Assembly (NCBI RefSeq): GCF_002902965.1
Contig: NZ_CP026108.1
Coordinates: 806,001 to 870,000, forward strand
Reading direction: 5' to 3'
Origin: Paraburkholderia hospita
GTDB taxonomy: Bacteria > Pseudomonadota > Gammaproteobacteria > Burkholderiales > Burkholderiaceae
DNA: 64,000 bases
Positions 6,970 through 61,523 of the stretch are shown in pieces (the stretch's first letter is position 1; every line of letters begins with the position of its first letter). A program made the position numbers and the translations under genes. The notes under the pieces are model-generated. The model was not told the DNA's origin and ran no database searches. It saw nothing but the letters and a program-made list of their open reading frames with translations.

Positions 6970-7863
6970 AGCGCCATCTTTCGATAAAGCCATCTGACGC
7001 TCCGCAGCTGATGTAAGCGTATGACGCCCTCCTTTACCGCCGTCTCACCACAAGATAATAGCTCGCATGGGACATCTCCTGTGGATATCTCATGCGGTAA
7101 CAGCTTCTAAACGCATGGTCAGGTTGTGGGGGCCAACCATTCCATCGCAAACTCCCCCGGCAGCTTGCATCGTCTCTCGGCGAGATGTTCAGCAATGCAT
7201 ATACGGATGTATCGCTTTCGATACTTCGTTCCGGTTGAATATATTACGATTTGAACATTTAATAGCAGTTCCGGAAAAATTGTCACTATATTTCCTGAAC
7301 CTTAATTGTTACCTGACTGGGACTAGCGATGCAGCCAGACGAAAGGATTTACTTCTCATATGTTGAAGGGCATCCATTAAGTAATTTCGCATTGACTGCC
7401 ACTACTCCAAAAGATCACCGGCAATCGCTCTCTCGATTTCCTTTCGATCCGGCATCAAACATCTTTCGGTTCAATCCGAACGGTGAATCTGCTCGGCGCC
7501 GATAGCCAAGCCTTGATCTGAAAATGACGGCGCGGTGCGTTGGCGCAAACCAAGCTTCTCGACCGTGTCACGCCGTTGTCGTCGCGAGTTACGGCAACTG
7601 ATCTGGCAGTTAAATCCGACCATGTTGGTATCGTCCGCAATTGCGTACATAGAAGACGTCAAGCACGTCGACGAGAGGTTCGCTGCATCTGACGCGCGCG
7701 ACCGCGCCCTGCCGCAACAGCCTGCTCTACATCGCAAAAGAACGATTCTCGTGGCGAACAATTTCTAGCGCCAGCTCGAAAATTGCCGACACGCTTGCGC
7801 TGATTCAATTTCCGTGAGCTTATCGACGTTCGAGCTGACGAAAACCTTCAACTCCGTTAAATC
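6970..7863. other. Intergenic stretch, about 890 bases
   Basis: No gene recognised. Open frames such as 7067-7366 (+) and 7471-7761 (-) lack family resemblance and good ribosome sites. An ATAC-N4-GTAT palindrome (7201-7212) is listed separately. Base composition is more AT-rich around 7200-7400 than in the coding regions. Confidence 0.4.
7201..7212 (+). promoter_or_regulatory. ATAC-N4-GTAT palindrome, weak candidate operator
   Basis: ATACGGATGTAT matches the palindromic core of the motif found before the DUF3331, AhpD-like and DUF417 genes. A TATATT sequence lies 28 bases after it, two bases off the -10 position of the better sites. No gene starts within 600 bases downstream, so its significance is doubtful. 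Confidence 0.2.
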
Positions 7864-10301: not shown

Positions 10302-10773
10302 GCCGGAATATATAACGTCGGGCTCTCGTCAGCCGTCCATAACGCATCGACGCTCGAAATGCGCAATCCCGAAGTTCAAGTAGCGCAATCACAGGGATAT
10401 CGCTTCAATACCTAAGTATGTTTTCATTTCCTTCTGGAACGTTTTAGAGTAGTGCAGAAGCGATTGACGTCTGAAATGTAACCGCGAGAAATGCGTGGCT
10501 TGTCACTATGAACTGCTATAAGAAGAAACCTGAGGCAATCGCACGACATGCTCGTGAGCAGCAGTCAAAAGTCACTTCGGCCACGTATTCCTCGATGGTC
10601 CTCGAGAATGCAGAACGGATATGAAAGGATGATATGCGCCGCTAACCAAAGTCGGTGAGACCGCACTCGGTTACGAATACCGTTGTGCTCTGCGCGCACC
10701 GACAAAATGGCCCACTTCTCAACGAGTGCAACATCCCAGCCGGCGCGACCGCGCCCTTTTTTGATTGATCCAC
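10302..10773. other. Intergenic region upstream of MFS gene
   Basis: About 470 bases with a candidate activator-type promoter at 10408-10450 (listed separately) pointing toward the MFS gene. No open frame with protein-like composition was seen. Confidence 0.4.
10408..10450 (+). promoter_or_regulatory. Candidate activator-dependent promoter (ATAC-N4-GTAT plus -10)
   Basis: ATACCTAAGTAT (10408-10419) is followed by GTTTTC and, at the same offset as in the three aligned promoters at 48983, 55193 and 55841, by TAGAGT (10445-10450) as a -10-like hexamer. If real, transcription would start near 10457 and read toward the MFS gene with a leader of about 315 bases. That leader is long, so this is the weakest of the four aligned sites. 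Confidence 0.35.
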
Positions 10774-30501: not shown

Positions 30502-30927
30502 TCATCGTCGTGCGCTCGGTACGCGCACGCACGACGCAAGAATCATTCGATGACTATTTGCGGGCGCCCGAGTCTCGCTCACCCATGGTCGAAAAACTGA
30601 ATCCCCGATCTTGATCGGCATACCACTGAGTGCGCAGAATGATCGGCCGTGTGCGAGACCCATCCTCCAGACCTGATCGCCAAAATACCCCGTAGTCGAG
30701 TCGCTCCAGCAAACACTGAGCGTGACGGATGAAAGCCACTCAATAATCGAAATCCTTGCCGGCATCAGCTCCTTCCGCGGCTTTTCCTTTGCCGCCTCAG
30801 AAAGCAAGGTCTTAGTTAGACGAAGTTTCTTCTTTTTTACAAGCGCTGCTGCAGCCGGTGCCGGAGCCGGCGCCAAAAGGCAAAGCAACGCTCTCTCAAT
30901 AATGTCTTCGCGAGCTTCTAGAGTCAT
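30502..30927 (-). CDS. DUF3331 domain protein
   Basis: 141 residues from MTLEAREDIIERALLCLLAP, with AGAAGG 6 bases upstream of the ATG (30927). The DUF3331 core is seen in the C-terminal 80 residues: VCWSDSTTGYFGDQVWRMG, then the paired motif CALSGMPIKIGDSVFRP and the closing NSHRMILA. CALSG and the preceding conserved residues look like a small metal- or nucleic-acid-binding fold, but no function is established that I can name. The middle contains an Ala/Pro run and a lysine-rich patch (VKKKKLRLTK). A second DUF3331 gene lies at 49189-49611. Confidence 0.72.
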   Translation of the reverse strand: MTLEAREDIIERALLCLLAPAPAPAAAALVKKKKLRLTKTLLSEAAKEKPRKELMPARISIIEWLSSVTLSVCWSDSTTGYFGDQVWRMGLAHGRSFCALSGMPIKIGDSVFRPWVSETRAPANSHRMILASCVRVPSARR

Positions 30928-31432
30928 TTGACACCTTCTTCGTTTGTCGACATCACCATTAGGGAACTTTCTCATCACGGCTACGCGAGCGTTGTGCCTC
31001 TTCTGAGAGGCAAGCGTGACCGTGATATTTACGCCCCGCGTGCGGTCCAAACTAAGCAATCCGTGATTGATTACCGGCCTGACGGGACTGGGAGGCAATG
31101 TTAGCCATGTAGAGGCTACGCTACAATATTCGTTGCGTATCGTCACTGCATCCATCGGTATATTCGACTTCCAATCCCGTCTTAAGCTCCTTACGTATTG
31201 TTGCTAGAAAAACGAAGGAGGTTCATGTGATTTTGTGTCATCGTTGTGACGGAAGACATCGTTTACTCCAAAAGACAATTTTGACGGCATCGAGAACAGC
31301 AGATGCGGTGCAATACGTTGGTATAAAACATCGATACCAAATATCTGCATCGCATATTTGTGAAAGGCGGCTCCCGCGACGTACACTCGCAGCATAAACT
31401 CCCGCGAATGTATAGGCCGAAAATAGTAAACC
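30928..31432. other. Divergent intergenic region
   Basis: About 500 bases between the DUF3331 gene (minus) and cytochrome b561 (plus); it must hold both promoters. AT-rich patches at 31260-31350 include TTGGTATAAAAC. No shared operator at the spacing of the other sites is seen, and no gene was recognised. Confidence 0.4.
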
Positions 31433-37313: not shown

Positions 37314-38245
37314 CGATTCGACTCAAGGAATAAGACTCAACAGCCGCCAGCACCGATTCAGCTCGAACACCTGATGCTGCCCCTTACTCTTACGGCAGTG
37401 AGCCTGTAGAAGTACCTCATATATTGCACCCATATGCGGTCATAGGCGATGCGATCAAGTCTTCTCCCGTGCCTGCACCGTCCACTGACGTTTACGGCAA
37501 CCGGCCGGATTCTCTGATGAACCGCCCGGCCAGCGCGCCAAGATCGCTCCAGCTACGTGATCATAAAGCCGAGGTTTAAAAGATTCCAAACTTCCGTGAA
37601 GTCCTCATGTAACTTGAATGAGCGCCCGCACCGTTACCGCGTAACGATATTTTCGGACTAACTTGACTTGCAATGCATCCTACAATCCGGGCCAAGATGA
37701 AACGCTTCTTGCGCCCCGGCAAAGACTTCCAAGTAGAACATACCGAAGTATATCGGGTGAATACGTATGCGCTGCCGCAACGAACTCGGAACTTGCTAAT
37801 ATCAGCAAGGATCTTGTCCCGGCGTGACGACGATAGGCAATGGGAGGAAGTGCTGGAGGTCATATCGCAAACCGCCTCAGCCAAGGCCCCAGTATTGTGT
37901 CTGGATGGAAAATGTCCGTATCGAACAGTTCAGCGAGTGCTATACGCGTGTGCGACCGTCGAATAGTAATCCGCAACACTCGGACTTGAGGCTCGGCCGA
38001 TCTGACTCAATTTAGATATTGCGACATAGATAGACATACACGACATGACGACTAATGACATCCCGGCGTGGCAGGCTATTCGTCTTGAGAGAAGACCATA
38101 CCGTGCCGCGTGACGTCTACGAACACTTCCGGCAAAGTTGCAACGGAGGTCCAAACAAACCTTGATTTAGCACGCAAAAAAAGGAACGCTTGTCTGCAAA
38201 GTTATCTATACGCGGGCCCAGATCCGGGTTCCTAAACAGCTGAAC
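37314..38245. other. Gene-poor stretch, about 930 bases
   Basis: No gene assigned. A plus-strand frame (37697-37966, MKRFLRPGKDFQVEHTEVY) has reasonable composition but no family match or ribosome site. It contains an ATAC-N4-GTAT palindrome at 37740-37751. Confidence 0.35.
37740..37751 (+). promoter_or_regulatory. ATAC-N4-GTAT palindrome
   Basis: ATACCGAAGTAT, identical over all 12 bases to the site at 42069-42080 before the P460-like gene. No -10 hexamer at the expected offset and no intact gene immediately downstream; the TetR relic starts 500 bases on. Possibly a remnant of a duplicated promoter. Confidence 0.25.
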
Positions 38246-38830: not shown

Positions 38831-38932
38831 AGCCCGAAGATCGGCTAGCCCGGCAGACATATGCAGTTTCACCGCATGCGACACTCCAAGCGGGCAAGCG
38901 GCAGCAAGGCAGCTCCCGTCACACCTAAACGA

Positions 38933-40642
38933 ATGAGTATTGAAACAGGCATGATGGGTAATGGGCATCGCAGGCAGCTACTGGAGATAGTGCAGGCTTT
39001 TCAGCAATTTTCACGTGATACCAGCGAAGAGGAAGTCGTCGCAACTTTTTTGAAGAGCGCAATATCGATGGCGAAGGCATCCCGGGTAAGGCTCATCAGG
39101 AACGACGGGGGAAACATACTCGTCGAATGTGAGGCACGGCGCTCCCAAAATAATGCAATTGTTGTCAGCCATGGTAGGCGACCCGTCGAATCGGAGGGAC
39201 TGTTCAGGAACGTCTTCAATTCGGCTTCACTCACCTATATGCCAGTTTTCTTAGGGTCTACCTCGTTTGTGCAGGCGCAGGCCTGGGCGAACCCACAGAC
39301 AGACACCATTGATAGCCCCATGTTGTGTGTGCCCGTGCTACTTAATGAAGAGAGCAAAGAAATCCTCTGCCTGGACACACGCAGCGATACGGCACCGCTC
39401 GATTCAACCCTAGTTGATCACCTGACCTTACTTTCAGCACAAGCGGTGATGAAACGAGAAAATCTGCGGCTCCGTGCACGCATCGCTCTCGAAAATCGAA
39501 AGATCGAAGAAGTCGAAGTTGCGCTCTGCGCAAACAAGAGAGAGCTGGCCCACATGCAACGAATGAGTCAAACCGGCAGCTGGAGGTGGCGCGCGGCTAC
39601 GGACACGTTAGAAGCGTCATCAGAATTTCTCCGGATATATGAAATTTCGCGTGAACGAAGCATTCCGAGCGGAAAACTAATTAATCTGACCCATCCTGAT
39701 GACCTCCCACTTGTGCGAATAGCACTCGTGAAAGCCATTGCCGCACGGCGCGTCTTTAAACTCGAATTCAGGATCATCGTCGGCTTCGGGGAAATTAAAT
39801 ATGTCCAAGTGGAAGGTCACCCGCAGACTAACGACACGGAAGATCTGCAGTATATAGGAGTGACCGTTGACGTCACGGAACGACGTAACGCGGAAAATGC
39901 GCTCCAAGCGGCGCGCGCGGAACTCGCGCGTGCTCACCGCCTATCCACGATGGGTGAGATGGCAGCATCAATCGTCCACGAGGTTTACCAGCCACTCACT
40001 GGAATTATTACGAACGCGGAGGCTTGTCTCAGATGGCTATCGAAATCACCGGCCGAAACAGCTCGAGCACGCGATTCCGCTCGACGAGTGGCTCGAGACG
40101 CCCGTCGAGCTGCTGATGTATTCAGAGGGCTAAGGGCTGTGGCATCCAATTCGGGTATCACTAAGGTTCCTGTGGACCTCGACGATGCTATAAGGGAAGT
40201 CGCCTTTCTCCTGCAGGGCGAGCTCGACCGCGCGAATATCAGACTGCGCTTGGAAACCGCCGTAGCCAAGCCTGTACTCGGCGATCGCACACAAATTCAG
40301 CAGGTTCTGGAAAATCTGATACGTAATTCTATGGACGCTTTGCTGCCCGTCGTCGGGATGCAAAAGTCCCTGTTTGTAAATTCCGCCTCGCATGATCCCG
40401 CGTTTGCGATGGTGACCGTCCAGGACAATGGGTGTGGGTTCGGCAAGCACTCCGCAGAGACGCTTTTCGATGCACTCTTTACAACTAAACCCAATGGTAT
40501 GGGCATGGGGCTCAAAGTTTGCCGCTCCATTGTGGAGGCGCACGGCGGACTACTTCAAGCCGAACGGCGTGAGCGCGAAACAGTGTTCCGGTTCACGTTG
40601 CCATATATAGACGGCACATCAGTCAATGATATCCAGAACTAA
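38933..40642 (+). CDS. Sensor histidine kinase (GAF-PAS-HisKA-HATPase)
   Basis: 569 residues from ATG 38933 (ATG 38951 is also possible; the frame extends to 38861). No membrane segment, so it is cytosolic. Residues about 10-175 resemble a GAF domain (LCVPVLLNEESKEILCLD), residues about 220-325 a PAS domain (SQTGSWRWRAATDTLEASSE, then YIGVTVDVTERRNAE), and the H box is ASIVHEVYQPLTGI with His349. The ATPase shows the N box NLIRNSMDAL, G1 DNGCGF and G2 NGMGMGLKVC. It precedes a FixJ-type regulator by 50 bases, its likely partner. The C-terminal half resembles the kinase at 52667-54688. Confidence 0.9.
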   Translation: MSIETGMMGNGHRRQLLEIVQAFQQFSRDTSEEEVVATFLKSAISMAKASRVRLIRNDGGNILVECEARRSQNNAIVVSHGRRPVESEGLFRNVFNSASLTYMPVFLGSTSFVQAQAWANPQTDTIDSPMLCVPVLLNEESKEILCLDTRSDTAPLDSTLVDHLTLLSAQAVMKRENLRLRARIALENRKIEEVEVALCANKRELAHMQRMSQTGSWRWRAATDTLEASSEFLRIYEISRERSIPSGKLINLTHPDDLPLVRIALVKAIAARRVFKLEFRIIVGFGEIKYVQVEGHPQTNDTEDLQYIGVTVDVTERRNAENALQAARAELARAHRLSTMGEMAASIVHEVYQPLTGIITNAEACLRWLSKSPAETARARDSARRVARDARRAADVFRGLRAVASNSGITKVPVDLDDAIREVAFLLQGELDRANIRLRLETAVAKPVLGDRTQIQQVLENLIRNSMDALLPVVGMQKSLFVNSASHDPAFAMVTVQDNGCGFGKHSAETLFDALFTTKPNGMGMGLKVCRSIVEAHGGLLQAERRERETVFRFTLPYIDGTSVNDIQN

Positions 40643-40692: not shown

Positions 40693-41328
40693 ATGGAATC
40701 ATCTCCTTTGGTCTACGTTGTCGATGACGATATCTCGGTCAGAGAATCTGTCGCGGACTTGTTAGCGACCGTGGGCCTAGAAGTAAGGCTCTTTAACTCG
40801 GCCACGGAAATGATTGACGTGTTGGTGAAGAACCAAGACAAAGCCGCCGCGCAGCCGAGCTGCCTCATCCTCGATATCCGAATGCCAGGGATCGGCGGAC
40901 TTGAGGCACAAGAGCGCCTCGCCAAGCTCCAAGTCTACATACCAATAGTCTTTATGACCGCGCACGGTGATATTGCGATGACTGTGAAGGCGATGAAGTC
41001 GGGCGCCCACAACTTTCTGAGCAAGCCTTTTCGTGACCAGGACATGCTCGACGCGGTTTGTTCTGCGATGATTCACGACCGCGCACGGCGCGAAAGCGAA
41101 CGCGGCCGTCGAGAGTTACGTGAACGATACGAGTCCTTGACTGCTCACGAGCGAAAGCTCCTGTCAATGGTGACAGCAGGTCTGATGAACAAGCAGATCG
41201 CGGCAAAGCTCAATCTGAGCGAGATAACCATAAAAGTGCATCGTGGGCAACTCATGCGCAAGATGAAAGCGAACACGCTCGTTGAACTTGTCAAAATGGA
41301 AACCCGCTTGCCAAAGTCAGATCGCTAA
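40693..41328 (+). CDS. FixJ/TodT-type response regulator
   Basis: 211 residues. The receiver domain has acidic residues at 11-13 (VVDDDIS), the phosphorylation site Asp61 (LILDIRMPG), Thr (FMTAHGD) and Lys in FLSKPFRDQD. The LuxR-type helix-turn-helix is YESLTAHERKLLSMVTAGLM followed by NKQIAAKLNLSEITIKVHRG. It is partnered with the upstream kinase. It is closely similar in both domains to the regulator at 51494-52189 (FLSKPFRDQD and GLMNKQIAA are shared), so both may bind similar DNA sites. It is a candidate activator of the aligned promoters at 48983, 55193 and 55841. Confidence 0.92.
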   Translation: MESSPLVYVVDDDISVRESVADLLATVGLEVRLFNSATEMIDVLVKNQDKAAAQPSCLILDIRMPGIGGLEAQERLAKLQVYIPIVFMTAHGDIAMTVKAMKSGAHNFLSKPFRDQDMLDAVCSAMIHDRARRESERGRRELRERYESLTAHERKLLSMVTAGLMNKQIAAKLNLSEITIKVHRGQLMRKMKANTLVELVKMETRLPKSDR

Positions 41329-42068: not shown

Positions 42069-42080
42069 ATACCGAAGTAT
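42069..42080 (+). promoter_or_regulatory. ATAC-N4-GTAT palindrome before P460-like gene
   Basis: ATACCGAAGTAT, 87 bases before the start at 42168, followed by CTTGTG. A GATGAT hexamer lies 19 bases after the palindrome, seven bases closer than the -10 of the aligned promoters. It could be the same operator in a different promoter geometry. Confidence 0.35.
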
Positions 42081-48409: not shown

Positions 48410-49188
48410 AGCAGAGGCTCTATGGTTCGTGTGCAATAGCCCGATAACGGCTGTTGATGTAAGACTCGCCAGCGAACCTCACACTCCTCTCCATCAGGTG
48501 GCGTAATGACTATGCCGTCAAGCTTTCCCGCAAGCTCCGAACGTGCAGGCTGGAGCTTGCGGAACCTCTTCGAACGAACAACGAGGCACGCGTCGCACGC
48601 AACCGTCGTCACTTCTTTAATCCCGCCACCCAGCCGTTCCCTGACTCATAGGCCAGCCTAGCTCGCCGAACCATGCTGCATCGGGTCATTCCCTATTCGA
48701 GAGCTTGGCGGTCACTCGCGCATCCGAACGAAGACGGTGGGGTAATTTCGCAGAACGGTGCCTTTGCCGTACTGCAATAAACGCGTCATTGCGCGGTGCC
48801 TTTTATCCGATCAATCATTCTTTCTTGCATACCGCACAGCTTCCTTTTCTGGGCACAGAGGAAGACCCCACTATAGCCAAGTCGCCTCTCGTTGCACGTG
48901 AACAAAGTGCTTCGACCCGACCCAAAGATTAGTTAACCGTCTCAGGTCTAGACGAATCGTTATCCTTTGGCGTCGAACTTCTATACCGACGCATGTTTGT
49001 TTCAAGCACTAGCGCCGCGTACTATTTTTACATCAGTGCCGCACTCATCCGTCACAGAATATCCCGGTTGATAGATATCCATATCACCCATCTGTGCGAT
49101 CGAGGGCCCTACTTCACGGATCGGCGCTCGATCTCCACCGCCATCTCACTCTATCCGCCGCTAAACCCGAAGTTCCCGGAGACTAGAT
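48410..49188. other. Intergenic stretch before DUF3331
   Basis: About 780 bases. The strong candidate promoter at 48983-49025 drives the DUF3331 gene with a leader of about 155 bases. A minus-strand frame at 48406-48612 has no recognised family. Confidence 0.4.
48983..49025 (+). promoter_or_regulatory. Activator-type promoter of DUF3331 gene
   Basis: ATACCGACGCAT (48983-48994), then GTTTGT (48995-49000), 19 bases, then -10 TACTAT (49020-49025). The palindrome is centred about 34 bases before the -10 centre, the position of an activator overlapping the -35 region. After the -10 the sequence CATC continues to match the DUF417 promoter (TATTTTT.CATC). Confidence 0.6.
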
Positions 49189-49611
49189 ATGGACGCACCG
49201 GCTACAACGGCCAAAGTCGCACCATGGAAGAGCATCGTGCGGTCGCTCGCGCAATCAGGTTCACAATCGCTGGAAAAAATTCTATTAGCGAACCTGAGAA
49301 CGCAAACGGAAACCCCGTTGTCGGACGACATGCATTTGCGCCACGCGACCGTCAATATCCTTGAGCGGGCATCCCAATGCACCGTGATAGTATCGTGGCA
49401 TGACCCGACACTATGCAGTTACAATTTTCAGCTTTGGCGTCGTTCTGATGCGACCCGACCGGGAATTTGTTCTCTCAGCGGCATCATAATCAACACGGGG
49501 GATAGCATATACAAACCCGTTTCAAAGCCACGACCAATCAACGCGTCCGCAATGATACTTGCGACCGAAGTTGAAAGTCGTCTCGTCTGTGAATCTCTTG
49601 AAAATTGTTGA
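49189..49611 (+). CDS. DUF3331 domain protein (second copy)
   Basis: 140 residues from MDAPATTAKVAPWKSIVRSL; GGAG lies 7 bases before the ATG. The DUF3331 core is VIVSWHDPTLCSYNFQLWRR, CSLSGIIINTGDSIYKPVSK and NASAMILATEVE. It aligns over its whole length with the gene at 30502-30927; the pattern WxD, CxLSG, GDSxxxP and ILA is shared. No function known. Its promoter belongs to the shared set described in the findings, which ties it to the AhpD-like and DUF417 genes. Confidence 0.75.
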   Translation: MDAPATTAKVAPWKSIVRSLAQSGSQSLEKILLANLRTQTETPLSDDMHLRHATVNILERASQCTVIVSWHDPTLCSYNFQLWRRSDATRPGICSLSGIIINTGDSIYKPVSKPRPINASAMILATEVESRLVCESLENC

Positions 49612-50618
49612 AGATACGCATCGGAAGTAAGCTTGTCCACATATACAGGCGTACCGCCGCCGAAGAACGCCTCGCTCTCGTTACGCCGTAACAAAAGGGT
49701 TGACCTGGACTTCCGTTGGCAATATAAAGCTTTATTAATTTCGAGGCCGGAGCGGTAGATCATCACGATCGCGAATGCGTGGCTTATGGCCCCGGCCTTT
49801 CTGGTATCGGTCTTGCCGAGCATGCTGATCGCAGAATACAGGAACAAAACCCAGTTGCTCGTCGCCTCGCTCGGCTGATATATAGATAACCGTTCCGCTT
49901 TGATGCTTAGATAATTGCGTAAAATATATTGTCCCGACGTTGCGATTCTCTGCTTTTCCGCATGATCAGCCAGCGATCTTTGATCTTCGGAGGTGGTAGC
50001 GCGAGGCTGATCTTTACCCCTGTCATTGGTCTTGCCGCTTTTAACCCGCTATTTGAGCACATCATCTCAAGCGCCATGCAGAAACTCGAGACCTTTTTCC
50101 ACGAATGCATGATCGAGGGCGAGGAGGCGATCAACAATATGACACGGGAGCCCGCTGAGAACGTCGCCAGGATATTAATCGGATCTGTAGCTCTGCTTCC
50201 AGCACTGACGCGCGTCGAGGTAATCATGCAACCGCAGATCAATTCGTCAGGTCCGTCGAGTTGTTACTGCGAAGAGCCGCGGCTAACGATGTTTCTATGA
50301 TGTAGTACGGTAGCTATCGTCAAGCCCTCAACCGTCAGAAATAATGTGCGGCAAGGCATGCGTACGACGGAATGTCCGTCGTAAGACGTTCTGATCTGAG
50401 GAAGACCGCACGTGATCATCAGACAGGCGGTCCAGCATGAGCGTCCCCCCTTACTGCGACACCCTCCCCTTCGGATCTCGGTCCGTCGAAAGCGATCCTG
50501 CTCGCACTAGGGATAAACGCAGGACGCCCTTCGGGATTCAGGCGTGTGACCGGCGGGACGGATGGCTCCCTGCGGCAGCCCAACGCTCGGGCGCTAAAGA
50601 GCGTCTGCACGGAACGCA
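49612..50618. other. Gene-poor stretch with TetR relic
   Basis: About 1,000 bases. A decayed TetR C-terminal domain lies at 49990-50240 (listed separately). The minus-strand frame 49428-49847 overlaps the DUF3331 gene and has no family match. Confidence 0.35.
49990..50240 (+). pseudogene. TetR C-terminal domain relic
   Basis: AAFNPLFEHIISSAMQKLET, FFHECMIEGEEAINNMTREP and AENVARILIGSVALLPALTR run parallel to the ligand domain of the intact TetR at 50619-51197 (VEIEAFFRRAIAGGQEQGEV, AADLARLLLGALLGIRVLAR). The N-terminal DNA-binding part is missing. The frame is open for 124 codons but has no ribosome site. Confidence 0.6.
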
Positions 50619-51197
50619 TCACCGCTTCAAAACGAGGAGCGCCGAACGGGCAATACTTTCTAGAAGAGCACGGTTGGGGCGAACGCGGGCCAGTACGCGG
50701 ATTCCAAGTAAAGCACCTAATAAGAGGCGGGCCAGGTCTGCCGCAGGGAGCCCGGTCGACACTTCGCCTTGCTCCTGTCCGCCTGCTATTGCTCGCCTAA
50801 AAAACGCTTCTATCTCAACGAAAACATCTGACACGACTCCTTTGAGTTCCGTGTCTTCGTCGCTGAGCTCAAGGGCTGAATTCACCAGTAGACAGCCTTT
50901 TCGGCTCTTGTCTTTTATGGAATAGTCGACGATATCTTTGAAAAATTCCTCTATCGCGTGTACGGTAGACTGACGCTCCCGAATGACGCGACCTTCGATA
51001 CCTGTCTCAATGTAGCGTGCGAGCGCCATTTTAAAAAGAGCGCGTTTATCGCCGAACGCGTTATACAGACTGGCGCCGGTAATCCCCATCGCGGACGCCA
51101 ATTCACGAACCGACGTCGACTGGTATCCATGGAGCCAAAAATGCTCAACCGCCGCGTCAAGCGCGGCTGCCTCATCGAATTCTCTGGGGCGCGCCAT
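50619..51197 (-). CDS. TetR/AcrR-family transcriptional regulator
   Basis: 192 residues from MARPREFDEAAALDAAVEHF. The helix-turn-helix is STSVRELASAMGITGASLYN followed by AFGDKRALFKMALARY. The ligand domain has SRKGCLLVNSALELSDEDTE, a cysteine-bearing segment common in this branch (as in NemR/YxaF-like proteins sensing electrophiles). It lies 296 bases from the divergent response regulator at 51494. Two decayed copies (38246-38830, 49990-50240) show it was duplicated in this region. Confidence 0.92.
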   Translation of the reverse strand: MARPREFDEAAALDAAVEHFWLHGYQSTSVRELASAMGITGASLYNAFGDKRALFKMALARYIETGIEGRVIRERQSTVHAIEEFFKDIVDYSIKDKSRKGCLLVNSALELSDEDTELKGVVSDVFVEIEAFFRRAIAGGQEQGEVSTGLPAADLARLLLGALLGIRVLARVRPNRALLESIARSALLVLKR

Positions 51198-51493
51198 TCA
51201 ATCTGTCCTCTAGTGGTTTCTACAGAAGGCAATGCGGGTTGCGATCCAATTATAAGTGCCTGCACAGTGAGCTCCTCGCCGAGCTAGTCAATCAACCGCA
51301 TTACCGTATGGGCAAAGGTGTGACAGTCTGCCACAATTGTCAGACCTCCATCCGTCCCCGGTTCATGTCATGGGATTAGCTATGCCCCACAGGTAGCAAG
51401 GGACACGATGTCGTGTAATACTTCTTTACCGGACAAGAGTTCATCCCGGTGTCCGCACGGTCCACGTACGGTCAACTGTAATTCAAGGGAGAA

Positions 51494-52189
51494 ATGATGT
51501 TCGCGCGTTCCCACTCGCCCCAACGAACACTTGCAGGCAGAATAGAGCCCGAACACGAGTCGATCGTGTACGTCGTGGACGATGACGAGCCGACGAGGCG
51601 GTCTTTGAGCGCCCTTTTTCGTTCCGTGGGTCTGCGCGCGGAGACGTTCGGGTCTGCGGCTGAATTCCTTTCATTTACCAAGCCGGAGTTACCCAGTTGT
51701 CTCATTCTCGACGTGAGGCTTCCACACGAGAGCGGGTTGGAGCTTCAACAGCAGCTTGTAAAAATGGGACTATCTGCTTCCATCATTTTCATCAGCGGGC
51801 ACGGCGATATTCCGATGACTGTTCAGGCCATGAAGGCGGGCGCGTTAGACTTCTTGTCTAAACCGTTTCGGGACCAGGACGTCCTGGACGCCGTCGCCTC
51901 AGCATTGCGCCACGACGCCGAGCGTCTGTCAAACGAACGTTCGATGGCAGACTTGCGCTATCGCTACGATTCAATGAACGCCAAAGAACGGACGGTGATG
52001 GGCTATGTCGTCGCCGGCCTCATGAACAAACAGATCGCGGCCGAAATGAATCTAAGCGAAATCACAATAAAAACGCACCGCGCTCATGCGATGAAAAAAA
52101 TGGCGAGCCGGACGCTGGCGGAGTTCGTCCGTATAGGGGAGATTCTCGGTATCGAGCCAGATCGTCAGTTTCTATCGAAACGCGACTGA
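51494..52189 (+). CDS. FixJ/TodT-type response regulator (second copy)
   Basis: 231 residues from ATG 51494 (AGGGAG just before; ATG 51497 also possible). The receiver has the acidic residues VVDDDE (about 27-32), Asp73 (LILDVRLP) and Lys in FLSKPFRDQD. The LuxR-type DNA-binding domain is NAKERTVMGYVVAGLMNKQI followed by AAEMNLSEITIKTHRAHAMK. Its likely kinase is the convergent gene at 52667-54688. It could act on the same sites as the regulator at 40693. Confidence 0.92.
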   Translation: MMFARSHSPQRTLAGRIEPEHESIVYVVDDDEPTRRSLSALFRSVGLRAETFGSAAEFLSFTKPELPSCLILDVRLPHESGLELQQQLVKMGLSASIIFISGHGDIPMTVQAMKAGALDFLSKPFRDQDVLDAVASALRHDAERLSNERSMADLRYRYDSMNAKERTVMGYVVAGLMNKQIAAEMNLSEITIKTHRAHAMKKMASRTLAEFVRIGEILGIEPDRQFLSKRD

Positions 52190-52666
52190 TAGTTAAGGCC
52201 CGCGATTTTCTGATGGGCAGCTGCTTCACTTTCATAGCAGCAATGCTTTAAGTTGCAAGATATCCCACGAGCGCTATTTGGCATGTCGGGCCAACACTTT
52301 CGCCCTTCTCCATCGCACAAGGATCGACGTTACGCGAAATCGTTTTCACCGGCGATGATGGATCCGTTAAAGTGCCGTCGCGAGTCTGGTGGGAACAATA
52401 GGTGCTAGAACTGGAACGTTCGCGTCAATGCAGGTTTTGCCTTCATCCGGAGTACATGACCAAAGGGAATGCGCCGCATCTGGTTTCAAGACATCGCCGC
52501 CGAGGCGATCAACCTGCCGTTGATGCTGAATCAGCAAATTCACGCAATCCCGACACATTCATCACGGCGTTCCGGGGCTACTCTGTTCGGAGGGACGCGA
52601 TCTCGAATTGTCCAAGTTGTCATCTTGTAACCAAGTTGACGTCCGGCCGTTTGAAAACATATCGAA
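52190..52666. other. Convergent intergenic stretch
   Basis: About 480 bases between the ends of the response regulator and the kinase. No terminator hairpin with a T-run and no gene seen; open frames are shadows. Confidence 0.35.
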
Positions 52667-54688
52667 TCAAGTACCAAATCCAAGCTGGGCCGAAACCCTG
52701 CCTCCAGCTTCGGGCAGCGATACTTCGAAGCGAGTGCCGTGAGGAGTCGATGGTTCGACGGTAAGGCGCCCCGCATGCGCCTCCACTATCGACCGGCATA
52801 TCGGTAGACCCATTCCCATGCCATGCGACTTCGTTGTGACAAATGGCGTAAAGATGTAATCAGAGGACCCTTCCTCGATGCCCACTCCTGTGTCTTCGAT
52901 TACGAGTCTCACGAGCCCTTCGACGGTCGAACTTCCCAGCAGCAGCCGACGTTCGCGATCGATAATCTCCTGCATTGCCTCAATCGCATTGACTACCAGA
53001 TTGAGCACTACCTGCTGTATCTGGATCTTATCGCCCCACACGAAACTCGTACCGGGGCCGGTAGTCGCCTCGACTCGGATAGCGTGCTTTTCCAGCTGAG
53101 TCCTCGTGACCAACAACACTTCGACGACAGCATCGTGTATGTCGAACGCTGAAAAGGAAGGAGCAGATCGTCTGCCCAGTGCCCGCAGGCTGCGCACCAC
53201 GTCATGCGCGCGAGTACTATCCGATTGAATCCTCTGCAACGCTTCCTCGACTTCTGAGAAGTCAGGTTCGTCGAGTCTCATGAATCTCAATGCCGCGCCG
53301 GCACTCGCTGCTATAGATACTAGCGGTTGACTAACTTCGTGTGTAACAGACGCGACTAGCTGCCCCATCGTCGTAAGGCTTGCCACCCGCGCGAGTTCCG
53401 CTCGTGAATCCCGGAGCTCCCGCTCCGCAGCTTCGCGCAGCGCGTTGCTCTCCTGAGTCGCTGCGTACAGTCGTGCGTTCTCGAGCGAGATTGCGGCTTG
53501 CGACCCAAATACTTCAAGCAATGTCGTCTTTTCCCCACCAAATGCGCCCGCGACGAGGTTGTTCTCGACATAAAGTATTCCGACGAGGTCAGATTGTTTC
53601 AGCAAGGGCAGGCACAGCACTGACCGCAGACCTCGTTGGCTAACGTAAGGATCCTCTGCAAAATCACCACAACGGGACGCGTCTACGAGCAACACTCTCC
53701 GTCGAGTCTTTGCGACACGCATGAATATTCCGAGAGGGAGCTCGACGTCCTGGAGCTGACGCGATTCGATGACATGTACGATACCGTCTAAAGATGTTCG
53801 TGCTTCGGCTTCGATTCGGAACTCCCCTTTCCATTGAAGCGCTACCGCACACCTCTCCGCTCCAGCGTGCGTGAGCACGTTTCCGATAAGCACTTCGAGG
53901 AGTCTGGAGAGTACGATTTCACTAGAAAGCGCATGAGACGCCCTGATTATCGCTCTGCTATCCAGGTGCTGCCGGAACGTATCGTTCGCGGGTATCTTCC
54001 GCTCAAGATGGATAGCCCGCGTGAGGCGAGATTCGATCTCTAGCGCTTTCCGTTCCGCGCCCCAATGAAGATAGGCATAACGGGCATCTCTCAGCAATGT
54101 CTCGGCGACAACAGAAAGTTTCTGAGCTAAATAGAAACTCGCCGCAGCTTCGAGTGCCACGGCCTCATTGTGAACGAACTCTTGCTTGCGACTAAGCTCG
54201 ATCGCTTTTTCATATAACGACTGTGCATCACCTATCCGACCCTGTACCCTCGCCAGTTCGGCTGCCGCCAATGCCGCGCGATCGCCAAAATAATCAGGAC
54301 ATGACTGCGCCCGCAACTCCAAGTAATAATTATGCTCTTCCAGAACGCGGAGGTGCGTTTCACGCACCCGTTCTTCCGTCGCCCGCGAGAACGCAGCCGC
54401 TCGACAGAGCGCGCCGTAATAAGAGACGTCTGCGGCCTCGACGGGGGCGGGGGCGAGGCCGAGCAATCCTTTCGCTTTGTGCTCAGCTTCCAAGGCGCCC
54501 TCCCAATCACGAAAAAGGACGCAATTCTGAAGGCGATGTACCCAGAATGCGGATGCGCCGGCGCTCGCGAACGCAGTGCCATCAATAAGATTCTCACTCC
54601 AGTCCGGCTCTAGGCCCCTAACCTCGAACGTCTGAATGTAGCTCATATAATACGCAACCCAAGGAATATAGATCCGCCCCTCGATCAA
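52667..54688 (-). CDS. Sensor histidine kinase, C-terminal part of a trifunctional kinase family
   Basis: 673 residues. The N-terminal 240 residues are helical repeats (AKGLLGLAPAPVEAADVSYY, RAALAAAELARVQGRIGDAQ) like the linker of the very large protein-kinase/AAA/histidine-kinase proteins. A GAF domain follows (RSVLCLPLLKQSDLVGILYV), then the H box ASVTHEVSQPLVSI (His450), N box NLVVNAIEAM, G1 DTGVGI and G2 HGMGMGLPIC. The usual upstream Ser/Thr-kinase and ATPase domains are absent and I see no remnant in the 660 bases upstream. So it is a truncated but still plausible kinase, partner of the regulator at 51494. The start codon is uncertain. Confidence 0.82.
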   Translation of the reverse strand: MIEGRIYIPWVAYYMSYIQTFEVRGLEPDWSENLIDGTAFASAGASAFWVHRLQNCVLFRDWEGALEAEHKAKGLLGLAPAPVEAADVSYYGALCRAAAFSRATEERVRETHLRVLEEHNYYLELRAQSCPDYFGDRAALAAAELARVQGRIGDAQSLYEKAIELSRKQEFVHNEAVALEAAASFYLAQKLSVVAETLLRDARYAYLHWGAERKALEIESRLTRAIHLERKIPANDTFRQHLDSRAIIRASHALSSEIVLSRLLEVLIGNVLTHAGAERCAVALQWKGEFRIEAEARTSLDGIVHVIESRQLQDVELPLGIFMRVAKTRRRVLLVDASRCGDFAEDPYVSQRGLRSVLCLPLLKQSDLVGILYVENNLVAGAFGGEKTTLLEVFGSQAAISLENARLYAATQESNALREAAERELRDSRAELARVASLTTMGQLVASVTHEVSQPLVSIAASAGAALRFMRLDEPDFSEVEEALQRIQSDSTRAHDVVRSLRALGRRSAPSFSAFDIHDAVVEVLLVTRTQLEKHAIRVEATTGPGTSFVWGDKIQIQQVVLNLVVNAIEAMQEIIDRERRLLLGSSTVEGLVRLVIEDTGVGIEEGSSDYIFTPFVTTKSHGMGMGLPICRSIVEAHAGRLTVEPSTPHGTRFEVSLPEAGGRVSAQLGFGT

Positions 54689-55350
54689 CCGACCGGTTGA
54701 TCGTCTCGCTCGCTTACGGGACGAGATAACGCATAGACGTGCTGGACAAGTCGCTTACCGATCCACGACCCCTCCTGTACTCCGTCGCGCCACCCGAGGC
54801 TGTCAACTTTCGGCACAGTTCAATCTGACCTGTCTGAAGCCAGGTCGTATCGAGCATGGAAGATTCGTTCATGTTGGCTCGGCAGATAGCAATTGCGGTC
54901 TCGTAGACCGCATCGTTCCTCTAGACGAGCAGCCATTTTATTCGATGCGTTCTAAAATGGTAGAACCTTTTATCTGGCACTATTTTTTAAATACCAACGA
55001 CCGAGTGAAGATCAACCACATCATTGATTTACAATATCGTTACAAAAAGGAACGCAGCGCCGACCCTAAGGTTGCGCATACCTGAAATCGCGTCTTCGAC
55101 GTCATTGAACCGGCTTAATTCGAAGAACGCCTTCCGGCTTCAAGGGCGCTGTAACTAGACGTCAACGGGCGCGCGTTGCATATATTTTCTATATACCCGC
55201 GTATGTTTGTCAGTAGCCGGACGCCGACATATGATCCCATTGATGGGGACAGCCCCGTAGACTCGGTCAGTCGTATTTTTGCCGTATGTGATCAACCGTC
55301 GGGAGCGCCGAGTCTTAACAGACGCCGCTTCGTTGCATTAGGAGATAAAC
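54689..55350. other. Intergenic stretch before AhpD-like copy 5
   Basis: About 660 bases. AT-rich at 54930-55060. It contains the candidate promoter 55193-55235. No trace of the missing N-terminal domains of the neighbouring kinase was found. Confidence 0.4.
55193..55235 (+). promoter_or_regulatory. Activator-type promoter of AhpD-like copy 5
   Basis: ATACCCGCGTAT (55193-55204), GTTTGT (55205-55210), 19 bases, -10 TATGAT (55230-55235). The geometry is identical to that at 48983 and 55841. It lies 147 bases before the start codon at 55351. Confidence 0.6.
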
Positions 55351-55656
55351 ATGTTGGACATGTCAAATCTGGACCGTCTTCAAAAGCTTGAAGAACATGC
55401 ACGAGCAGGAATGGCGGCGTTCTGGGCCTTTGATAAAGCCGCCTTTGAGGAAGGCGTTCTGTCCGTACAGACGAAGCAATTGATTGCGATTGCTGTCGCA
55501 CTAACCACACAGTGTCCGTATTGTATTGAGCTTCATACAACCGCCGCACGGGACGCCGGTGCGACGAGCGCACAGTTAGCCGAAACCGCAGTGGTCGCAG
55601 CCGCGATCCGGGCAGGAGGAACGATCACCCACGCCACTCATCTGATGCGGGAGTAA
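55351..55656 (+). CDS. AhpD-like carboxymuconolactone decarboxylase-family protein (short, copy 5)
   Basis: 101 residues, a single CMD domain: MLDMSNLDRLQKLEEHARAG, then LSVQTKQLIAIAVALTTQCP with the complete active site CPYCIELH (CxxCxxxH) and the closing helix VVAAAIRAGGTITHATHLM. It belongs to the short YciW/AhpD-type group, distinct from the 180-residue copies. AGGAG stands 6-8 bases before the ATG. It has its own promoter of the shared type. Family members detoxify peroxides with thiols. Confidence 0.9.
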   Translation: MLDMSNLDRLQKLEEHARAGMAAFWAFDKAAFEEGVLSVQTKQLIAIAVALTTQCPYCIELHTTAARDAGATSAQLAETAVVAAAIRAGGTITHATHLMRE

Positions 55657-56075
55657 CGGGCATTTCTCACCGGTACGCGCGCGCGTTATTTAGTTATAGG
55701 ATACTGTTGTTGGTGCGCATCCCGCACCGATGCGTTTCCTCCTGGCACACGACGAACGCCAGACTGCGTCGTTCTCTGAACACAACAATCGCTCCTCGTT
55801 GCTGGGAACCGTCCCTGCGAGTCCATACGGACATCAAACGATACTCACGTATGTTTGTGAATCGTGAAGCGGGGGGATATTATTTTTCCATCTGACGCTC
55901 ACGGAGCACCCCGACCTATAACAGCTTCGGATTGAATTGAGCGTCAGGCTGACGTTCAGATTGCTTGGTCGTCTAGCCAGGAGCCAATTTATCGACGCAC
56001 GCCCGATTACAACAGAATCATAAGGCGTTGGCTCATTCGTCCAAATTCTCAAACAAAGTTAATGGAGCGAAAGAT
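55657..56075. other. Intergenic region before DUF417 gene
   Basis: About 420 bases with the promoter at 55841-55883; no gene recognised. A long leader (about 180 bases) lies between the predicted start of transcription and the gene. Confidence 0.4.
55841..55883 (+). promoter_or_regulatory. Activator-type promoter of DUF417 gene
   Basis: ATACTCACGTAT (55841-55852), GTTTGT (55853-55858), 19 bases, -10 TATTAT (55878-55883), followed by TTTTCCATC. It is the closest match to the DUF3331 promoter, with matching bases continuing past the -10. Confidence 0.62.
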
Positions 56076-56582
56076 ATGCTTAAAAACGTACATGTCGCCG
56101 AGAAGTATGACACTTCGGTCTGGCCGCTTGGGTTCCTTCGCTGGGCCTTGGTGGTCATATTTCTTTGGTTCGGTTGCATGAAGTTCACTAGTTACGAGGC
56201 TCACGGAATCTCTTCGTTTATTGTACATAGTCCGATTATGGGTTGGCTCAATACCCTATTCGGGGTACAAGGTGCGAGTGATGTGATTGGCGTCCTCGAA
56301 CTGTCGACGGCTGCCGCCCTGATCCTTGGCGCATTTGTCCCGATCTTTTCGGCGCTTGGCGCTGCGATGTCATGCGCGACTTATATCGTCACCTTGACGT
56401 TTATGTTTAGCACCCCTGGCGTAACCGCGGCTCCCTTGGGCGGCTTCCCGTGGCTATCAGGCGATGTCGGGCAATTCTTGCTTAAGGACCTTGTTCTTCT
56501 CGCGGCGTCCGCCTGCCTTCTGATGAAATCAATTCAATTGGCACCGAGCGGCGCCCATGAGACGGCTGCAATGTCTCGATAG
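56076..56582 (+). CDS. DUF417/YkgB (RclC-like) membrane protein
   Basis: 168 residues from MLKNVHVAEKYDTSVWPLGF; GGAG lies 10 bases before ATG 56076, so the extension to 56028 is rejected. Four hydrophobic segments and the family blocks WALVVIFLWFGCMKFTSYEA, IVHSPIMGWLNTLFGVQGAS, IGVLELSTAAALILGAFVP and PWLSGDVGQFLLKDLVLLAA identify DUF417. In E. coli the homologue RclC belongs to the reactive-chlorine resistance operon rclABC. Here it follows an AhpD-like gene, consistent with oxidant defence. Confidence 0.88.
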   Translation: MLKNVHVAEKYDTSVWPLGFLRWALVVIFLWFGCMKFTSYEAHGISSFIVHSPIMGWLNTLFGVQGASDVIGVLELSTAAALILGAFVPIFSALGAAMSCATYIVTLTFMFSTPGVTAAPLGGFPWLSGDVGQFLLKDLVLLAASACLLMKSIQLAPSGAHETAAMSR

Positions 56583-60173: not shown

Positions 60174-60791
60174 ATGACCAATGCCGTCATTGAATGTATC
60201 CTGAGCCGTAGCGCCGCCAAGTACTACGACCCCGCCGCCACCTTGAGCGACGACCAGATTCGCGAACTGGTGCGTATCGGCACCTCGGCGCCAACGTCCT
60301 TTCACTTGCAGAACTGGCGCTTCATCGCCGTTCGCACGCCCGAGGCCAAGGCCAAGCTAAGTCCGATCGCCTGGAATCAGCCTGCGATCACCGATGCCGC
60401 TGTTACCTTCATCGTCTGCGGCCAGCTGGCCGATTCCAGCGTGATACCCGATCGCCTGGCTCCTCTTGTGGAAGACGGCGTCATGCCCGCGGAGATGGTG
60501 TCGGAATGGGAAATCCCGGCGCGCGGTCTGTACAAGGAATACCCCCAGCGTCAGCGAGACGAGGCAGTGCGCAGTGGGACCTTTGGCGCCGCAGCAATGA
60601 TCTATGCGGCCCGCTCACTTGGACTGGGTTCTACGCCGATGATCGGTTTCGATGCCGAAGCCGTGCACCGTGAGTTTGGTTTGGCCGACGATGAAGTGCC
60701 GGTCATGTTGTTGACAGTAGGTGCAGAGCGTTCGGGAAACTGGGCACAGAAGCCGCGCCGTCCCGTCGCCGATGTACTGGACCTGGTATGA
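60174..60791 (+). CDS. Nitroreductase-family NAD(P)H flavin oxidoreductase
   Basis: 205 residues. FMN contacts are visible in LSRSAAKYYDP (Arg-Ser near the start), GTSAPTSFHLQNWRFIAV and the later FGAAAMIYAARSLGLGSTPM with IGFDAEAVHREFGL. The family reduces nitro groups, quinones and related electrophiles with an FMN bound at the dimer interface. The ATG at 60174 has only a weak ribosome site (GCGGAACC). The base composition of this gene is more GC-rich and regular than its neighbours. Probably part of the redox/stress set. Confidence 0.88.
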   Translation: MTNAVIECILSRSAAKYYDPAATLSDDQIRELVRIGTSAPTSFHLQNWRFIAVRTPEAKAKLSPIAWNQPAITDAAVTFIVCGQLADSSVIPDRLAPLVEDGVMPAEMVSEWEIPARGLYKEYPQRQRDEAVRSGTFGAAAMIYAARSLGLGSTPMIGFDAEAVHREFGLADDEVPVMLLTVGAERSGNWAQKPRRPVADVLDLV

Positions 60792-60977
60792 GTGATTCGC
60801 CGCAGCGGTGACCGCGGCGACAGATTAACAGGCCAGCAGGTGAGAGGCGATCACAGACCACTTGCCGCCTGAAGGCCTAACCAGCTTCGAGCCTGCCTGG
60901 GCACGAAGTAAGCCGACGGACAGTTCCTGCAAGGGCTTCCTTCAATTAGTTAAACAAGTTACTTAAGGAGTACTGAT

Positions 60978-61523
60978 ATGCCAAGAACTATTGTGCTATC
61001 GCCGGAAAACGTGCCGGCTGAGTCGAAACCTACTCTCGATGCTTTCACGAAAAACATCGGATTCACTCCGAACATGATGGCATCCTTCGCACAAAGCCCG
61101 ATCGCGTTCAACGCCTGGGCGACCCTGCTCGGCTCCCTGAGTAAGGCGCTCGACGTGAAGACGCGCGACAGCATCGGTCTGGCTGTCTCCGAGGTGAATG
61201 CCTGCAACTACTGTCTGTCAGTTCACAGCTTTACGGCCAAGCATATGGCCCAGCTGGCGCCGGAGGAAGTCGTTCTCGCCCGGAAGGGCCACGCGAGCGA
61301 TCCGAAGCGCGACGCCGCCGTCCAGTTCGCGCGCAAAGTCATCGAGACACGCGGCCAGGTCACTGACGCCGATCTGAAAGCCGTCCGCGATGCCGGGTAT
61401 TCGGATGCGAACGTCATGGAGATCGTCGCGCTGGTCGCCATGTATTCTCTGACGAACTTCTTCAATAACGTGTTCGACCCCGAGAAGGACTTCCCCGCCG
61501 TTACACCGGCTGGCTCCGTCTGA
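60978..61523 (+). CDS. AhpD-like carboxymuconolactone decarboxylase-family protein (copy 6)
   Basis: 181 residues from MPRTIVLSPENVPAESKPTL; TAAGGAG stands 8 bases before the ATG. The active site CNYCLSVH is complete (CxxCxxxH), and the family blocks FTKNIGFTPNMMASFAQSP, RFARK-type FARKVIETRGQVTDADLKAV and FFNNVFDPEKDFP are present. It is the most canonical of the long copies. It stands between a nitroreductase and an SDR on the same strand. Confidence 0.92.
   Translation: MPRTIVLSPENVPAESKPTLDAFTKNIGFTPNMMASFAQSPIAFNAWATLLGSLSKALDVKTRDSIGLAVSEVNACNYCLSVHSFTAKHMAQLAPEEVVLARKGHASDPKRDAAVQFARKVIETRGQVTDADLKAVRDAGYSDANVMEIVALVAMYSLTNFFNNVFDPEKDFPAVTPAGSV

Follow-up and report, generated by a model that had tools for sequence, protein, structure and literature searches.

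The large replicon (contig NZ_CP026108.1) of the 11.5-Mb, six-contig genome of Paraburkholderia hospita carries three promoters that share one 43-base element. All three lie within a stretch of 64,000 nucleotides (positions 806,001 to 870,000 of the replicon), which is called the window here and is numbered from its first nucleotide. The element consists of the palindrome ATAC-N4-G(T/C)AT, a directly adjoining GTTTGT box, 19 further bases, and a TATNAT-like hexamer, and it precedes the genes of a DUF3331 protein, a small AhpD-like protein, and a DUF417 protein. It is more frequent than chance would allow, and this observation is stronger than an earlier note on this DNA had claimed. Judged from the sequence comparisons, the conserved promoter set with its shared predicted operator is real, and the kind of control is one already known. 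Probably, the element combines a promoter of the sigma-70 type with an activator site of class II type, to which a FixJ/StyR-like response regulator would bind.

The three sites were found exactly as the earlier note had written them. The DUF3331 site reads ATACCGACGCAT-GTTTGT-N19-TACTAT. Its palindrome, the presumed regulator site, is the GCAT variant (48983..48994, + strand; supported by sequence and conservation in the genus), and it is followed at 48995..49025 (+) by the GTTTGT box with a -35-like TTGTTT (48997-49002), a 17-base spacer, and the -10-like TACTAT (49020-49025). The site of the AhpD-like gene reads ATACCCGCGTAT-GTTTGT-N19-TATGAT, with the palindrome at 55193..55204 (+) and a box and promoter segment at 55205..55235 (+) that comprises TTGTCA (-35-like, 55207-55212), a spacer, and TATGAT (-10, 55230-55235). 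The DUF417 site reads ATACTCACGTAT-GTTTGT-N19-TATTAT, and here the palindrome is at 55841..55852 (+) and the segment at 55853..55883 (+), with TTGTGA (-35-like, 55855-55860), a spacer, and TATTAT (-10, 55878-55883). Both of these palindromes are supported by sequence, conservation, and alignment. A weaker fourth site (10408..10450, +) upstream of an MFS gene (10765), also proposed earlier, reads ATACCTAAGTAT-GTTTTC-N19-TAGAGT, and its palindrome, box, and hexamer were confirmed at offsets identical to those of the trio. The spacers and flanks of the three promoters differ among themselves.

In the trio, the palindrome is followed by two bases and then by a weak -35 inside GTTTGT, which lies 17 bases before the -10; the -10 hexamer begins 25 bases after the palindrome, an arrangement termed the +25 geometry below. 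The palindrome had been thought to overlap the -35 position. Instead, it abuts a weak -35, ending two bases before TTGT. When the last hexamer is set to -12 to -7, the palindrome occupies about -49 to -38 with a centre near -43.5. In class II promoters of the CRP and LuxR type a palindrome likewise stands shortly before a weak -35 and at a fixed distance from the -10, and the trio combines all these features: a site beside the -35, fixed spacing, a poor -35, and a good -10. The class II site centres of CRP and LuxR are -41.5 and -42.5, respectively, compared with the -43.5 deduced for the trio. Transcription would start at about 49032, 55242, and 55890, with leaders of about 157 nt for DUF3331 (start codon 49189) and about 109 nt for the AhpD-like gene. 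The trio -10 fits and the trio -35 is poor because the consensus for Burkholderia cenocepacia, as reported in PMC4603805, is TAnAAT for the -10 and TTGCC for the -35.

Exact copies of ATAC-N4-GTAT occur seven times in the window (7201, 10408, 31313, 37740, 42069, 55193, and 55841). On the basis of 100 dinucleotide shuffles, 0.25 copies were expected, and the largest shuffle count was two. The excess asserted in the earlier note therefore stands, but its figures of six copies and about one by chance do not, as the copy at 31313 had been missed and the expectation is 0.25. Genome-wide statistics were obtained from pattern searches and retrieved stretches. The genome holds 47 exact palindromes, 19 of them on the replicon of the window, versus 15 for the backward control. 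The longer pattern ATACN4GYATGTTTGT had three exact matches, none with a single mismatch, and 34 with two mismatches, which makes 37 places with at most two mismatches, versus 24 for its backward control. A more general rule allowed the palindrome up to one mismatch and required TT at positions 15-16 and TAnnnT 25 bases after the palindrome. Applied to both strands of the window, it selected four places and no more, namely 10408, 48983, 55193, and 55841.

Conservation was analyzed in 144 genomes of the same genus using the pattern ATACN4GYATGTTTGT-N19-TATNAT with at most one mismatch, and the pattern read backwards served as control. The search returned 21 sites in 7 genomes, exactly three in each, and no control site. 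The 21 sites are upstream of the genes for DUF417, the AhpD-like protein, and DUF3331; in one genome (G372) the DUF3331 protein had an identity of only 49%. The same seven genomes contain an orthologue (E <= 1e-85) of the response regulator encoded at 51494 (RR 51494) and a DUF417 protein that is at least 88% identical. Thus, wherever the locus was found, each of the three promoters has the element. At positions not demanded by the pattern, A was present at position 7 in 20 of 21 sites and G at position 24 in 19 of 21. A promoter alignment, with one row per genome per block and six genomes in the AhpD block, showed that the element is better preserved than any other block, with flanks that are much less conserved; for G371 and G372, the AhpD sites were wrongly grouped in the DUF417 block, and two G374 sites stood in the DUF3331 block, one of them perhaps a chance GCAT match. 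An Rfam scan of seven loci gave no match at the gathering score.

Beyond the genus, 299 evenly drawn genomes of the family were searched for a form with GTTT and TANNAT without mismatch. This search retrieved the three sites of P. hospita, one site each in G051 and G019, and no control site. G051 belongs to another genus, and its site stands before the AhpD orthologue. There the DNA that leads up to the palindrome does not resemble that in the other genomes, but the palindrome, GTTTGT, and TATGAT are kept at the exact offset. In G051 (L069 6135-6830), a rearrangement has placed a truncated orthologue of the window's second FixJ-type regulator (RR 40693) and a P460-like gene beside the AhpD promoter. 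Among 80 AhpD relatives retrieved, the element was present in four (L071, L072, L073, and L075) and a bare palindrome in three (L093, L123, and L124), and 73 had neither within the retrieved DNA; the closest AhpD-like genes among named relatives were from Paraburkholderia and Burkholderia. At nine more distant DUF417 loci (64-71% identity) the element was absent, and two of them (L195 and L197) had a bare palindrome.

The window encodes two candidate regulators of the FixJ type, RR 51494 (51494..52189, +) and RR 40693 (40693..41328, +). For both, Pfam PF00072 (receiver) and PF00196 (GerE/LuxR helix-turn-helix) were above cut-off, and in the translations, read by eye, both receivers contain the acidic pocket (VVDDD), the phospho-accepting aspartate (ILDVR or ILDIR), and the lysine (SKPFR). 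A GAF-domain histidine kinase (52667..54688, - strand) would be the partner of RR 51494, and a PAS-domain histidine kinase (38861..40642, +) that of RR 40693; the kinases were assigned by Pfam and the putative pairings by position. RR 51494 has 16 relatives in its own genome at E <= 1e-25, and eleven regulators there, the window's two included, are at least 50% identical to it.

Distances between such regulators and the palindrome were measured in four genomes (the own genome, and G051, G387, and G305 out of eight others) with a threshold of 5 kb. A palindrome was within this distance for 16 of the 20 regulators that are at least 50% identical to RR 51494 (8/11 in the own genome, and 4/5, 3/3, and 1/1 in the others), a count in which two G387 regulators look like near-identical copies. 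Among regulators below 50% identity it was 1 of 24 (0/6, 0/6, 0/5, and 1/7). Exclusion of the window locus and its G051 counterpart left 13 of 17 (own genome 6/9, G051 3/4), and the association was also seen at loci unrelated to the window. Two further genomes, G193 and G270, have only regulators below 50% identity, and none of the six was within 5 kb of a palindrome, as read by eye. The remaining three of the eight, G320, G338, and G335, did not enter the count for want of complete palindrome lists. The recognition helix shows a parallel division: the residue before the conserved T is I or V in all 13 palindrome-linked regulators aligned and in the three unlinked ones of at least 50% identity, and K, Q, or Y in the five readable distant ones. 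The suggestion of a FixJ-type regulator as candidate activator is supported, in that close relatives of RR 51494 stand beside the palindrome far above chance. There is a good likelihood that the palindrome is the operator of this FixJ/StyR-like subfamily and that RR 51494 is its likeliest binder here, for which Pfam, the association, the closest structure, the orthologues, and the helix argue; Pfam, the association, and the helix also make RR 40693 an alternative binder.

The geometry recurs at genes for lone receiver domains. Outside the window, 21 palindromes that lie close to such regulators or share a cluster with them were read in both directions. Among these 42 readings, TAnnnT stood at +25 in five and at 39 or 40 in eight, and no other offset was seen more than once; among 62 readings of the other palindromes of the genome, no offset was seen more than twice. 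In each of the five +25 cases, a gene for a lone receiver domain follows. A later look at three such genes that lack an exact palindrome showed palindromes with one, one, and two mismatches and TAnnnT exactly at +25, the last being weak. The derived pattern ATACN4GTAT-N-ATT-N21-TAnnnT, which the trio does not match, was found at 52 places in 38 of the 144 genomes and never in the backward control. Thirty of these loci (L211-L240) were examined, of which L219 and L224 were already among the 21-palindrome cases and many are orthologues, so that the independent number is smaller: a receiver domain starts 113-226 bp after the palindrome in 28, and 13 also have a helix-turn-helix match to RR 51494 within the 3-kb locus, while both features are missing in L217 and L228. 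Of 37 control loci, L030 and L045 alone had regulator matches, and both of these are re-found near-regulator palindromes.

The palindromes 39-40 bases before a TAGAAT/TACAAT-like -10 form a second promoter class. Loci L005, L181, L206, L208, L209, L239, and L240 encode, near regulators of this kind, a small conserved protein of about 42 amino acids (LHNWIF.G.NAYDEYTFVPWLN.NVYRRTVDL), of which L046 has a truncated copy. In L005, L046, L181, L206, L208, and L209 its gene is downstream of the second promoter class; the protein is absent from the window.

Three further palindromes of the window, all kept in relatives, show that the palindrome is used at other genes as well. The first (31313..31324) stands before a cytochrome b561 gene, at a distance of 112-115 bp in P. 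hospita and in five of the seven relatives. The second (37740..37751) is in the gap between the DedA gene and the PAS kinase gene, and the third (42069..42080) precedes the P460-like gene; each is present in five of seven relatives, not always the same five. The P460 gene had been credited with a variant palindrome, and the copy at 42069 proved to be exact. In G051, a further palindrome is found about 100 bp before the P460-like gene, inside the broken regulator. Two other palindromes, used as control, had zero or one occurrence each per region. Read by eye, none of these three window sites has a -10 at +25. Thus, the earlier proposal of one regulon of three families is partly supported: the element is shared and the trio occurs in 7 of 144 genomes, but palindromes at the cytochrome b561, P460-like, and lone-receiver genes and in the DedA/kinase gap indicate a use beyond three families.

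The following mechanism would account for these observations. A FixJ/StyR-like response regulator, phosphorylated and dimeric, would bind ATAC-N4-GTAT at a centre some 43.5 bases ahead of the transcription start. Positioned just upstream of a poor -35, it would recruit RNA polymerase to the good -10 and presumably act by activation rather than repression. This would switch on the genes for DUF3331, the small AhpD-like protein, and the DUF417 membrane protein; the MFS gene downstream of 10408 may be a further target. RR 51494 with its convergent GAF kinase would be the likeliest binder, and RR 40693 with the PAS kinase may share the site owing to a near-identical recognition helix. The presence of AhpD-like, DUF417, cNMP-domain/thioredoxin-reductase-like fusion, nitroreductase, P460-like, and cytochrome b561 genes suggests a redox or respiratory stress signal.

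Several observations weigh against this interpretation. Eleven of positions 1-18 are invariant in the 21 sites, with positions 2, 7, and 18 varying in one or two sites, a count that is partly circular, since most of these letters were fixed by the search pattern. That RR 51494 occurs together with the trio comes from a single linked locus and is hence weak alone, and many of the 52 lone-receiver matches in the genus are orthologous copies. No palindrome with fewer than two mismatches lies upstream of RR 51494, and the control palindrome TATGN4CATA was found once within 5 kb of a regulator, namely RR 40693. In the own genome, three of the eleven close regulators have no palindrome within 5 kb. 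The G051 locus lacks DUF3331, RR 51494, and its kinase, yet the AhpD and DUF417 sites are kept; its RR 40693 copy is truncated, and the remaining RR 51494 paralogues are at most 61% identical. Also, the G051 DUF417 orthologue has the palindrome and GTTTGT, but GATTGC, and thus no -10, at the hexamer offset.

The site could mainly belong to RR 40693 with the PAS kinase, and RR 51494 could have another role. RR 40693 is a member of the same subfamily with nearly the same recognition helix, its distances to palindromes are about 0.7 and 3 kb, and in G051 its truncated copy is next to the AhpD site. However, the regulator that stands between the target genes in P. hospita and six relatives is RR 51494, and G051 has retained the sites although its RR 40693 copy is broken, so that we consider this assignment rather unlikely. 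A rival that the earlier note did not name is a TetR-family repressor (50619-51197), which would bind the palindrome and block the -35. TetR proteins bind palindromes, the gene lies between DUF3331 and RR 51494 with a Pfam TetR_N domain and is 81-97% identical in six relatives, and the palindrome abuts the -35. This reading is improbable: the palindrome tracks the response regulators, a tblastn search with the TetR protein (E 1e-4) detected no counterpart at 12 other loci with the palindrome (a pair of which span only 3 kb each), G051 keeps the sites with no TetR gene match in the 32 kb examined, and a poor -35 is expected of an activated promoter.

Alternatively, an unlinked regulator of another family might bind the palindrome, and the response regulators would be near it only through a shared type of cluster. 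The persistence of the G051 sites without the linked regulator pair and the three close regulators without a site nearby would be in line with this, but the association is confined to one subfamily (16/20 versus 1/24) and recurs in unrelated clusters, and we regard this explanation as quite improbable. Chance, for which the raised number of matches expected at the lower guanine-plus-cytosine content of the region (55.7%) speaks, or a recent duplication that turned one promoter into three copies, can practically be dismissed in view of seven palindromes versus 0.25 expected and the lack of backward controls in 144 genomes. Recent promoter duplication was set aside for the differing spacers and flanks of the three promoters.

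Both regulators of the window share with FixJ of rhizobia the build of a receiver and a GerE helix-turn-helix domain, but with 186.8 and 190.8 bits they miss the NCBIfam FixJ cut-off (NF006900, 255 bits). The closest solved relative of RR 51494 is StyR (PDB 1yio and 1zn2; E 3.8e-52, residues 24-216), followed by FixJ. The StyR operator ATAAACCATGGTTTAT is a palindrome different from ATAC-N4-GTAT. StyR acts in styrene breakdown according to PMC3224230, and no styrene gene was among the window proteins scanned. As described in PMC4999443, systematic evolution of ligands by exponential enrichment yielded GTAGTTTCCC and GTAMGTAG as motifs for FixJ, and the site at fixK is TAAGTAATTTCCCTTA. Compared with these motifs, the trio sequence A(C/T/G)G(T/C)ATGTTTGT has in common a GTA (or GCA) core followed by a T run, a partial likeness seen by eye. 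The Sinorhizobium meliloti fixK footprints given there, at -69/-44 and -57/-31, differ from the single 12-base palindrome of the trio that abuts the -35. Neither fixK nor nifA was among the window genes scanned. The DUF417 protein shares its membrane family (Pfam) with RclC of the reactive chlorine system, but at 75.4 bits it misses the NCBIfam RclC cut-off (NF040476, 275 bits). RclC is regulated by RclR of the AraC family, and control of this type is not what the window shows.

In the open-licence part of PubMed Central, no prior description of the operator and regulon and no work on DUF3331 were found; the palindrome as ATACNNNNGTAT, ATAC-N4-GTAT, or ATACN4GTAT had no match there, and the string TACNNNNGTA matched only unrelated CsoR work.

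The target genes encode the DUF3331 protein (49189..49611, +; PF11811), the 101-residue AhpD-like (CMD) protein (55351..55656, +; PF02627), and the RclC-like DUF417 protein (56028..56582, +; PF04224), the true start of which may be a few codons downstream. A second DUF3331-domain protein of 217 amino acids is encoded at 30502-31155 (E 1.7e-14). The P460 assignment is below the Pfam cut-off (20.6 versus 27 bits). The nitroreductase and CMD genes (window 60174-61523; L048 3887-5230) have second copies on the same replicon, some 4-5 kb past the window end, with about 99% protein identity. No exact palindrome was found upstream of RR 51494, both kinases, the thioredoxin-reductase-like gene, the nitroreductase gene, the LysR gene, or two CMD genes. 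Upstream of the thioredoxin-reductase-like gene there is a palindrome with one mismatch that has no -10 at +25, and another with two mismatches and TATTGT at +25, which was treated as chance level. The palindrome at 7201 precedes a RidA-like gene by about 660 bp, and two exact palindromes are on the small contig C6 (L050 1138 and 2772); the promoter geometry is absent from all three.

A wider extension of the proposed mechanism is offered tentatively, as possible and somewhat doubtful. The whole FixJ/StyR-like subfamily in the genus may keep one operator and one geometry, with each system driving its own lone receiver, which might act as a phosphate sink and so provide feedback, and the island may have recruited the operator to redox effectors. 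Because the paralogues share the recognition helix, many kinases might converge on one operator and form a cross-talking stress network. The results provide a concrete, testable operator for a group of uncharacterised two-component regulators, and they tie DUF3331, together with AhpD-like and RclC-like genes, to a defined promoter and a candidate signal pathway. If the extension is true, an operator common to paralogous systems would make two-component cross-talk in one cell directly testable, and the network would be of a kind not previously described.

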